A DNA stretch of 64,000 nucleotides from an uncultured Neglectibacter sp. (GTDB lineage: Bacteria > Bacillota > Clostridia > Oscillospirales > Acutalibacteraceae). Within the stretch, counting starts at the first letter, position 1; every line of letters begins with the position of its first letter. Location of the stretch: assembly GCA_947647615.1 (NCBI GenBank), contig CANSKS010000004.1, forward strand, positions 30,442-94,441. The letters run 5' to 3'. Under the pieces are notes generated by a model. The model worked only from the letters and a program-made list of their open reading frames with translations. It was not told where the DNA came from and did no database searches. Both the position numbers and the translations under genes were made by a program. Shown piece by piece: positions 3,740-7,036 of the stretch.

Positions 3740-5458
3740 TTAGGGTTCCGTTTTTATCAAAGCCAACTCCCACGCCCTCCGGAACTGGGAAATAGACTGC
3801 TGCCGTTCTGCCCGGTTGTCGCTTACTGCCCGGCTTACTACCCTGTAGGTTTCTCGAGAAAGAGGCCAGGCCGCTTCCTCCCGGTTATAATTCGAAAAGA
3901 GGGCGAAAGCCGTAGCGCCCAAGGTATAGACATTGGTCACCTCGTCCAAAACAGCGCCCCACACATATTCCTCCGGCGATTGAAAATGGCTGCTGCCCCA
4001 CATACGACCCATATCGTTTACACAGGGCTTCTTCCGGAAGAAATCGATATCGCAAATGGTGGTTTTCCCGGAAGCGAAATCATAGAGCACACTGCCGTCG
4101 TAAAAATCGATAGCTTCAAAGCCTTCCCTTGCCAAATATTCAAAAAAGGAAAGGATATCGGCAAAAATTTTCTTTCTGGCTTCTAAACTGGTATGTAAAA
4201 AGCGTTCCCGGGCAGCAGGGTACATACGTCCCATGCACGCCCCTTCCGCCCAGCGGAATTTCAACAAAAACCCACCGCCGATTTCTTGGGAACCTAAAAA
4301 TTCGATAAGGTTCGGGTGGCGCAGCGCTTGATATACCGGCAGGGTTGCCTTCAAGCGTTCTACCGCCTCCTTGGGGGAGCCCTCATATTGTTCGGTAGGA
4401 GCCCCGGCAAACTTCAGAAAATACTTTTCTCCTTCCTGGGCTACGCCAAAACAAATATTGCCGGAATCCTGGTCGTCGAACACCTGAAACACCTTGCCGT
4501 ATTCCTTTAAAAAGCCGAAATCGTAAGGAGACTTCAGCTTATAAGGGCAACCGTCAATTTCCTGCAAATAGTAGCCGGGAAAATACCAGGACGGTATATA
4601 ATTTTGATGCCCCCGGTACCATTCCAAAATCTCCCTGGCCTGACGGCGCATGGTTTCCACTTCCTGCTCTCCAAAGGGAATCGCCCAGTACAAGGAAGAA
4701 AGTATGTTACTGGAAATATATAGGGCCAAAAGCCGCCAAAATTCGGGCGGCACTTCCCCTTGGAAATATCCATTCACCATACCGGAAGCAAAAAGGGGCG
4801 ATTGCTGGACGCACCAAGGAATACGGTTGAATTCCTCCCAAGGGTCGCCGCAGTCATCTCTGTCAAAGTCTATGACATACAAATTCCCTGTGGGATCGAT
4901 CAACATATTCCCAAGGTGATAATCCCCATGCTGGTAGCTCTGAGGCCGGTCGCGGAGCAGCTCCCTGTTTTCCTCAATCGCAGTGAAGAAAAAGCCATCT
5001 TCCTCATATTTCAGCGGACAGGCCCAGTAGCCCTCTATTTTCCGCTGAACCTTTCTCCCAAACCGGAGGTGCCAATCTTCTGCAGCCTCTGGCGGAGAAA
5101 GGGAATGGATTTCCCGCAGAATTTCCCCGGCCCGCAGGCCGTAAACGTACTGCTGAGTGTCGGAGCAAAGGGGGATTTTCGCTTCCGCTTCTTCTCCCTC
5201 TATCCAAGTTTCCAGAGTGTAAACGCCTTCCTCACAAACGCCACACTCTATCGCATAGCACAGGGGAAGGTTCAGATTTTCCAGACGCTTCCTGTTTTTA
5301 AATTGGGCCCTTCGCCTTTCCAGCCGCTCTAAGGGAGAAATTTTCAGCAAATAGCAGGTTCCCTCTTTTGTAGTGACCCGGTATTTTTTATCGGCAGACC
5401 AGCCCTTCAAAATAGGTTCTTTAGCGGCAAAATCGAACTCCATTTCTCCCTCCAACAC
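3740..5458 (-). CDS. Tandem kinase-like protein: N-terminal APH phosphotransferase plus C-terminal protein-kinase-like domain
   Basis: N-half HGDYHLGNMLID...VIDFDRDDCGDP; C-half kinase fold features (YFLKFAG, LRHPNLIEFLG, DIDFF, SPEEYVWGAVLDEVTNVYTLGATAFAL). Confidence 0.75.
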   Translation of the reverse strand: MLEGEMEFDFAAKEPILKGWSADKKYRVTTKEGTCYLLKISPLERLERRRAQFKNRKRLENLNLPLCYAIECGVCEEGVYTLETWIEGEEAEAKIPLCSDTQQYVYGLRAGEILREIHSLSPPEAAEDWHLRFGRKVQRKIEGYWACPLKYEEDGFFFTAIEENRELLRDRPQSYQHGDYHLGNMLIDPTGNLYVIDFDRDDCGDPWEEFNRIPWCVQQSPLFASGMVNGYFQGEVPPEFWRLLALYISSNILSSLYWAIPFGEQEVETMRRQAREILEWYRGHQNYIPSWYFPGYYLQEIDGCPYKLKSPYDFGFLKEYGKVFQVFDDQDSGNICFGVAQEGEKYFLKFAGAPTEQYEGSPKEAVERLKATLPVYQALRHPNLIEFLGSQEIGGGFLLKFRWAEGACMGRMYPAARERFLHTSLEARKKIFADILSFFEYLAREGFEAIDFYDGSVLYDFASGKTTICDIDFFRKKPCVNDMGRMWGSSHFQSPEEYVWGAVLDEVTNVYTLGATAFALFSNYNREEAAWPLSRETYRVVSRAVSDNRAERQQSISQFRRAWELALIKTEP

Positions 5459-5705: not shown

Positions 5706-6833
5706 TCACATGAAGAAACCCAGTACAATCCCCCCGGCCACCGCAGAAGCGATTTGGCCCGACACATTGGCGCCCACGGCGTGCATCAAAAGATGGTTCT
5801 GGTTGTTTTCTGCAATCCCCATTTTCTCTATCACCCTAGCAGACATTGGAAATGCCGAAATCCCCGCGGCTCCTACCATAGGGTTCATCTTTTTCCTGCT
5901 GAACAGGTTCAAAAGCTTGGCAAAAAGCACGCCGCCAACTGTGTCGAATATAAAGGCGAACAGCCCCAAAGCCATAATCATTAAGGTCTGCCAATTCACA
6001 AATTGTTCCGCCCGCATAGAGAAAGAAATGGTGATGCCCAAAAGGAGCGTGATGAGATTGGCCAAATCGTTTTGAGCGGTTTCGGAAAGGCGGTTCAAAA
6101 CACCGCACTCTCGAATCAAATTGCCGAACATCAAAAAGCCCACCAAAGAAACAGAGGCGGGAGCTACCAGCCCGGCGATGAAAGTAACGATAATCGGGAA
6201 CAGGATGCGAGTTGTCTTACTCACTGCGGCGGGGCGATATTCCATTTGAATGGCCCGCTCCTTTTTCGTAGTAACAGCTTTGATGGCCAGCGGCTGTATA
6301 ATGGGCACCAAGGCCATATAAGAATAGGCTGCCACTGCGATAGGCCCAATATAATTCGATTTCAGCACCTGAGATACCAGAATAGAGGTTGGCCCGTCGG
6401 CGGCGCCGATAATGCCAATGGAAGCGGCGTCTCGAATATCAAAGCCCAGCAGAGCAGCCAAAACAATGGTGAGGAAAATGCCGAACTGAGCCGCCGCCCC
6501 AAACAAAAACATTTTGGGGTTGGAAAGCAGCGGGCCAAAATCGATCATGGCGCCAATGCCAATGAACAGCAGAAGCGGCATGGCCTCCGAAGCTTCTATG
6601 CCAATTTCAAACAGCCATTGAATAATGCCATTGGTTTCCCCAACGCCGGCCATAGTCTGGTTCAGCACGCCGGAGAAGGGCAGGTTCACCAAAATGGCGC
6701 CAAAGCCCATGGGCATTAGCAGCGCGGGTTCGTAATCTTTTTTAATAGCCAGCCAAATGAGCGCCGCGCCCACCAAATACATCACTACCTGCTTCCAGGT
6801 GATAGCAAGCAGGCCTTCCCACAAAAATTCCAT
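5706..6833 (-). CDS. Sodium ion-translocating decarboxylase, beta subunit (OadB/GcdB/MmdB family)
   Basis: Polytopic protein with IGIIGAADGPTSILVSQ, FPMSARVIEKMGIAENNQNHLLMHAVGANVSGQIASAVAGG; start ATG at 6833 with upstream GGAAGGAAG; the longer ORF start at 6926 overlaps the leader RNA. Confidence 0.92.
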   Translation of the reverse strand: MEFLWEGLLAITWKQVVMYLVGAALIWLAIKKDYEPALLMPMGFGAILVNLPFSGVLNQTMAGVGETNGIIQWLFEIGIEASEAMPLLLFIGIGAMIDFGPLLSNPKMFLFGAAAQFGIFLTIVLAALLGFDIRDAASIGIIGAADGPTSILVSQVLKSNYIGPIAVAAYSYMALVPIIQPLAIKAVTTKKERAIQMEYRPAAVSKTTRILFPIIVTFIAGLVAPASVSLVGFLMFGNLIRECGVLNRLSETAQNDLANLITLLLGITISFSMRAEQFVNWQTLMIMALGLFAFIFDTVGGVLFAKLLNLFSRKKMNPMVGAAGISAFPMSARVIEKMGIAENNQNHLLMHAVGANVSGQIASAVAGGIVLGFFM

Positions 6834-6879
6834 GTTTCTACTTCCTTCCTTTTTCCATAGCGTTCCCAAATTGGGGGAT

Positions 6880-6918
6880 AAATAAAACCAGACCCATGCC
6901 TTTTGGCACAGGTCTGGT
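6880..6918 (-). terminator. Intrinsic terminator inside the 5' leader of the beta-subunit gene
   Basis: Minus strand ACCAGACCTGTGCC-AAAA-GGCATGGGTCTGGT followed by TTTTATTT; 47 nt upstream of the start codon. Confidence 0.85.
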
Positions 6919-7001
6919 CGTTTCAAGCTAAACCAGGGACAGAACCCAGGATTGTTGATTTAGCTGCATGGTATTCCACGCCGACTACTCCCCCATAACT
7001 G
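6880..7001 (-). promoter_or_regulatory. Candidate cation-sensing riboswitch leader (yybP-ykoY-like)
   Basis: GGGGAGTAG core (6985-6993) near the predicted transcript 5' end, structured middle, and an intrinsic terminator before the ORF. Confidence 0.55.
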
Positions 7002-7007
7002 CAACAA

Positions 7008-7036
7008 AGTGTAACATATTTTTCAAAAAGTGTCAA
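7008..7036 (-). promoter_or_regulatory. Sigma-A-type promoter for the leader/beta-subunit transcript
   Basis: Minus strand TTGACA - 17 nt - TACACT. Confidence 0.6.

Follow-up and report, generated by a model that had tools for sequence, protein, structure and literature searches.

The sequence analysed here (the window, a stretch of 64,000 nucleotides from a gut-type bacterium) carries on its minus strand a solitary gene for an OadB-like membrane protein of 375 amino acids (5706..6833; PF03977 / TIGR01109), preceded by a putative regulatory leader. The sequence and a promoter scan revealed a TTGACA-N17-TACACT promoter (7008..7036, minus strand), in which the -35 element TTGACA (7036-7031) and the -10 element TACACT (7013-7008) are separated by a 17-nt spacer; 10 of the 12 consensus positions are matched and a TG precedes the -10 element. 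Transcription would start near 7001, and GGGGGAGTAG begins at 6994 on the same strand. Further downstream lies an intrinsic terminator (6880..6919, minus strand) made of a stem (6919-6886) and a T-rich tail. A preliminary description of this DNA had called it perfect; the terminator itself stands, but three of the 15 pairs of its stem, which closes on a 4-nt loop, are G-U. The ATG of the OadB-type gene, at 6833, follows about 47 nt 3' of the terminator, the spacing originally given, and a ribosome binding site, AGGAAGG, was recognised from the sequence at 6844..6850 (minus strand). Downstream of the OadB gene, a 572-aa gene (3740-5458 of the window, minus strand) has by eye a double kinase/phosphotransferase-type look; no link between this gene and the leader was found.

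By themselves, the scans for promoter and terminator gave counts that were not above chance, so that proof of the leader has to come from conservation; the fold of the window leader was better than those of 200 out of 200 dinucleotide shuffles (z = -4.0). When 118 genomes were searched at the DNA level, the leader turned up in 22, all from this genus, and genomes of other genera gave no match; 22 of the 29 genomes of the genus carry both the leader and the solitary OadB gene. Among the matches listed, the same gene follows the leader, with identical opening codons in those loci where the displayed stretch extends that far. The promoter, structured leader and terminator first reported on the minus strand thus lie where they had been placed, and the leader is conserved in 22 same-genus genomes.

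The aptamer domain was modelled at 6906..7005 on the basis of covariation (model R1, 103 positions, 100.2 bits); all elements given here are on the minus strand. The 5' strand of P1.1, the switch helix, occupies 6992..6995 and forms the pairs 6995-6909, 6994-6910, 6993-6911 and 6992-6912. It is followed by the 5' strand of L1, GGAGUA (6986..6991), which is invariant in 94 leaders, and by the 5' strand of P1.2 (6982..6985, partner 6920-6917), where U-A changes to C-G and G-C to A-U. The P2 hairpin (6966..6981) keeps its pairing while sequence and length vary. P3 (6926..6965) comprises P3.1 (6965-6959/6932-6926) and P3.2 (about 6947-6944/6940-6936) and holds L3, TCAACA, at 6958-6953. At the place of P4 there is only a TGAAA linker (6921..6925), which makes the junction three-way and not four-way. 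Lastly, the L1 3' strand CAGA and the P1.1 3' strand CCUG (6909..6916) are common to the aptamer and the terminator 5' arm; as this stretch (CAGACCUG) is part of that arm, P1.1 and the terminator are mutually exclusive. The antiterminator initially proposed, a CTGGT pairing with the terminator arm, was not upheld: CTGGT (6936-6932) sits in P3, its proposed pairing has no covariation support, and the competitor of the terminator is P1.1/P1.2.

Two alignments were used to assess this architecture. The first comprised 22 same-genus leaders and was not fitted to the model. It contains 36 invariant columns, and 95.6% of the cells on P1.1, P1.2, P2, P3.1 and P3.2 were paired, against 83.8 +/- 1.0 after shuffling. 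Two-sided changes occurred at 14 pairs, giving a covariation score of 0.408 (0.187 shuffled), and sliding the partner by 1-3 columns reduced pairing to 25-45% and the score to 0.04-0.09. The P1.1 pair 6994-6910 (column pair 12/133) was G-U, A-U or G-C in all 22 leaders. The second alignment held 94 leaders from many genera and was fitted to the model, so that its covariation leans towards the model; within this limit, 94.0% of cells were paired (98.4% for P1.1), two-sided changes were seen in 25 of the 26 pairs and the score was 0.776 compared to 0.268 after shuffling. GGGAGUA and AGAC were present in 94/94 of these leaders and the CA of L3 in 93/94, and a 5-nt junction takes the place of P4 in 91/94. 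Covariation in homologous leaders, whose absence the preliminary description had listed among its refuting conditions, is therefore present in both sets.

The Rfam scan proposed at the outset returned nothing at gathering threshold for the whole window. Below threshold, the window leader had two meaningful matches, to SSRC10 (32.5 bits) and to the Mn riboswitch RF00080 (17.4 bits), and no match to the Na+ (DUF1646/Na+-I) and Li+ families was obtained even with E up to 10. Two same-genus OadB leaders scored 34.0 and 33.0 bits with RF00080 (E about 1e-7 per genome), again under the gathering cut-off of 45 bits. This cut-off is a poor guide, and the empty window scan uninformative, because the validated E. 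coli mntP riboswitch (L233:5458-5558) itself reaches only 44.9 bits, 0.1 under the cut-off. Searching 35 related genomes with RF00080 gained little sensitivity. Stronger than any of these was the converse test, in which a model built only from P4-less leaders (R2) found the validated E. coli riboswitch just upstream of mntP, with E = 1.3e-4 in the 22 kb searched. In crystal structures, the adenosine of the L3 CA (A41 in L. lactis, A48 in X. oryzae) gives an N7 contact to Mn2+ (PMC6754395), and A6953 is likely the equivalent of this sensing adenosine. As judged by comparison of sequences, the assignment of the switch class is well supported, and the suggestion that GGGGAGTAG is a yybP-ykoY hallmark hinting at Mn2+ agrees with the sub-threshold RF00080 matches and the Mn-class core. 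Because a 5-nt linker replaces P4, we place the leader not as a plain member of yybP-ykoY but as a P4-less variant that would work like a Mn2+ riboswitch.

The match to SSRC10 fits the same class. In S. pyogenes, SSRC10 sits immediately 5' of a gene described as a "putative calcium transporter" (PMC3675131), and in S. agalactiae the leader of a similar gene carries a yybP-ykoY annotation (PMC4448216); given this adjoining transporter gene and this annotation, SSRC10 is itself probably a Mn-type leader filed as a trans-acting small RNA.

Across the family, model matches were obtained in 67 of 300 genomes. The gene following 71 family leaders encodes a P-type ATPase in 31 cases, MntP in 18, OadB in seven, a Na/Ca exchanger in six and a TetR-like protein in six, with three other or unassigned; one OadB case (G021) was assigned from a separate analysis, and example genes were checked by Pfam. 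The leader class as a whole thus precedes Mn2+/cation exporters, and OadB would be a candidate one. Leaders of the same class before mntP, P-type ATPases and Na/Ca exchangers bear out the original proposal of a terminator-controlled metal-type riboswitch ahead of an OadB-type gene. The window genome contains a second copy of the leader before mntP (G000:C69:8767-8859), likewise P4-less, so that one cell has the same kind of RNA before a Mn2+ efflux gene and before OadB.

Two further target classes were noted in passing. The TetR-family regulator genes behind the same leader come from several family genomes (L048, L051, L054, L073, L076, L100). Na/Pi-cotransporter-family genes (PF02690), a target class unexpected for Mn2+ control, lie behind a Mn-like leader with the L3 form GUCAGUACG or GUCAAUCCG at L238, L242, L243, L244 and L245 (genomes G028, G007, G016, G014 and G021, respectively).

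The window protein belongs to PF03977 (512 bits) and TIGR01109 (419 bits) and aligns over nearly its full length to Salmonella OadB of solved structure (6iva). The homology behind its first label, a Na+-decarboxylase beta subunit, is therefore sound; the label is misleading, the protein being a solitary paralogue in a genome whose canonical pump is encoded on another contig. There, a second OadB, the better match with 535 bits, is flanked by biotin carrier and carboxyltransferase genes and is part of a canonical Na+ pump. Neither partner was found beside the window gene. Among 80 relatives taken from genome records bearing an organism title, no biotin carrier or carboxyltransferase gene lies within 4 kb when identity to the window protein is 58% or more (L150 is the exception), and most of those at most 54% identical do have one or the other within that distance. 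In a tree, the leader-bearing genes all group in a clade of 47 members, separate from the canonical genes (support 100/99); L150, with its bccp/pycB neighbour, is one early branch of it. Leader carriers include Marasmitruncus massiliensis, Pseudoflavonifractor capillosus, Lacrimispora saccharolytica, [Clostridium] symbiosum and an Eisenbergiella.

Considering only the 41 clade genes that had not been picked for their leader, 21 carry it (18 detected by R1, and L125, L127 and L139 by R2), compared to none of 36 canonical genes; about half of the clade is without a detected leader. The Fisher value over all rows, 1.6e-9, is descriptive only since the rows are related. The strongly diverged leaders, clear only with the broader model, lie at L139:3835-3937, L125:3474-3582 and L127:3563-3671, the latter two about 330-420 nt upstream of the gene.

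In the Salmonella protein, Na+ is bound by D203, S382 and N412, E40 is needed for decarboxylation, and R304 and N311 are both needed for full decarboxylation (PMC7274780). D203, S382, N412 and E40 are invariant in the solitary clade (47/47), as are Y227, Y229 and R389. R304 is present in 9/47 solitary proteins against 35/36 canonical ones, and N311 in 29/47 against 34/36. The solitary clade has thus kept the ion site and relaxed two residues that help decarboxylation, but not E40, the most important one.

Within the genus, two OadB genes were found in 19 of the 20 tested genomes with leader and solitary OadB; the other, G024, gave a single partial match, and there the contig ends 550 nt from the leader. 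The seven genus genomes without the solitary gene have the canonical OadB only, and in all seven the same riboswitch stands before a Na/Ca exchanger gene. Exchanger genes (PF01699) occur in 7/7 genomes without solitary OadB and, above cut-off, in 0/22 with it, one sub-cut-off match aside. The exchangers are of two subtypes (39% identical over 150 residues), and at least three changes between the OadB and exchanger states are needed on a tree of canonical OadB, which is a single gene with modest support. That an exchanger has repeatedly given way to solitary OadB downstream of one and the same switch is the strongest evidence obtained for cation export by the latter; the way in which the two genes replace each other in related species suggests that an OadB subunit has taken on a new role as metal-ion exporter. 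MntP is encoded in 29/29 genus genomes, so that solitary OadB would be a second exporter; a lack of MntP was accordingly rejected as the reason for needing OadB. Genomes with solitary OadB and without the canonical complex were sought as proof of independence; among good genomes there were none, nearly all having both.

The explanation that we consider probable is that a P4-less Mn2+ (yybP-ykoY) variant acts as a transcriptional ON switch for an OadB-derived exporter of Mn2+ or a similar divalent cation. We infer the ligand, the direction of switching and the transported ion as follows. With no ligand bound, 6919-6905 would serve as the terminator's 5' arm, keeping the gene off. Mn2+ in excess would bridge L1 (GGGGAGUAG / CAGACC) and L3 (UCAACA), and their docking would let P1.1 and P1.2 form and hold the CCAGACC stretch, blocking the terminator and allowing read-through. 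For the L. lactis Mn2+ switch, which has this arrangement, experiments showed that Mn2+ stabilises P1.1, whose first two G:C pairs nucleate the helix, and that read-through follows (PMC11087558). The solitary OadB then made, presumably derived from the beta subunit of Na+-pumping decarboxylases and now standing alone, would export Mn2+, perhaps coupled to Na+ or H+ via the retained site; Mn2+ or a similar divalent ion is its most likely substrate because the other genes behind the leader export such ions or are predicted to. The broader proposal, that solitary OadB proteins constitute an unrecognised family of Mn2+ exporters which arose from the membrane subunit of a Na+ decarboxylase, is induced by P4-less switches and is interchangeable with exporters of the Na/Ca-exchanger family, we regard as evenly balanced. 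Counting against the probable explanation are the missing P4 of the solved members, the scores under the Rfam gathering thresholds, the roughly one half of solitary-clade genes in which no leader was detected, and the presence in nearly every genome of a canonical OadB whose partners the solitary protein could share. The invariant D203, S382, N412 and E40 also leave room for decarboxylation or Na+ transport by the solitary protein.

A related reading keeps the yybP-like fold and shifts its ligand to another cation, for example Ca2+, Cd2+ or Co2+, which the gene would export or otherwise handle. The loss of P4, the L3 nucleotides after ACA (AAUC versus UACU in MntP leaders) and the Na/Ca exchangers behind the same leader are all in its favour, and Breaker and colleagues anticipate that some yybP variants respond to divalent ions other than Mn2+ (PMC7266159). 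We nonetheless think it unlikely, as the Mn2+-reading adenosine and the L1 core are kept and this P4-less RNA also stands before mntP in the window genome. The most divergent-looking position, a C at column 222, was considered as a specificity change particular to OadB leaders and rejected, as it is also present in ATPase and TetR leaders.

It is similarly doubtful that the solitary OadB has stayed a decarboxylase subunit and can take a place in the canonical pump by exchange, with Mn2+ tuning Na+ energetics, for instance through a carboxyltransferase that uses a divalent metal. Such a role would agree with the invariance of E40, D203, S382, N412, Y227, Y229 and R389 and with a canonical OadB, biotin carrier and carboxyltransferase in the same genome. 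Against it, no such partner travels with the solitary gene, R304 (9/47) and N311 (29/47) are relaxed, the gene displaced is an ion exchanger and not a metabolic gene, and the other assigned target classes, TetR aside, are all ion transporters.

Control of a Na+ pump by a Na+ riboswitch (Na+-I / DUF1646 or a new Na+ class) is very improbable. Na+-I riboswitches do occasionally precede OadB genes (PMC9337991) and the downstream protein keeps its Na+ site, but the Na+ families remained unmatched at E up to 10, the core sequence and the helices match the Mn class, and the leader accompanies 0/36 canonical Na+ pump genes; a Na+ or other cation class, held equally possible in the preliminary description, is thus not on a par with Mn2+. 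That the leader is an attenuator without regulation, or yields a small RNA that stops at the terminator as SSRC10 was taken to do, is hardly credible. In favour of this reading, the best Rfam match is SSRC10, annotated as a small RNA; against it, SSRC10 has a cation transporter gene immediately downstream (PMC3675131), the similar S. agalactiae leader is annotated yybP-ykoY (PMC4448216), and covariation of the terminator-excluding P1.1/P1.2 is conserved over 94 leaders.

We found no link between a Mn riboswitch and OadB in the literature, the gene lists of Dambach 2015 and Price 2015 being outside this comparison, and the association is likely, though not proven, to be novel. If the preferred explanation of Mn2+-controlled export is true, the OadB-derived exporter adds a family, a subunit of a primary Na+ pump now serves as a carrier in its own right, and many "oxaloacetate decarboxylase beta subunit" annotations in Oscillospiraceae and Lachnospiraceae would be corrected. 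P4-less riboswitches are under-detected by the Rfam Mn model, gathering-level scans of which miss even E. coli mntP.

Among known systems, the leader resembles the yybP-ykoY Mn2+ riboswitch (RF00080; L. lactis yoaB, E. coli mntP) in P1.1, L1 GGGGAGUAG, P1.2, P2 and P3, in the L3 UCAACA and the CNAGACC 3' strand facing L1, and in its position before cation exporters; as in the L. lactis switch, the terminator arm overlaps P1.1 (PMC11087558). It differs from the solved members, which have P4 and a four-way junction, by its 5-nt UGAAA-like linker and three-way junction (the E. coli mntP riboswitch has, by eye, a 7-bp P4 hairpin), and also by its solitary OadB target and a score below the Rfam cut-off. 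With the streptococcal SSRC10 (RF02617), also located before a cation transporter gene, it shares GGGAGUA, GUCAA, UGAAAC...GAGACC and a terminator, and the SSRC10 model gives 43.6 bits on the mntP leader of this genome; SSRC10, however, is annotated as a trans-acting small RNA and could have a 3-bp CUG-AAA-CAG where the linker here is open. Na+-I (DUF1646) occasionally controls OadB/PycB-type genes by antitermination (PMC9337991) and differs in its motif and in the absence of a model match. The solitary protein, finally, belongs to the same family as the OadB/GcdB beta subunits of Na+-translocating decarboxylases (PF03977) and shares their cation site (D203, S382, N412), but stands apart from them as a separate clade (100/99) with no biotin or carboxyltransferase neighbour and with R304 and N311 relaxed.
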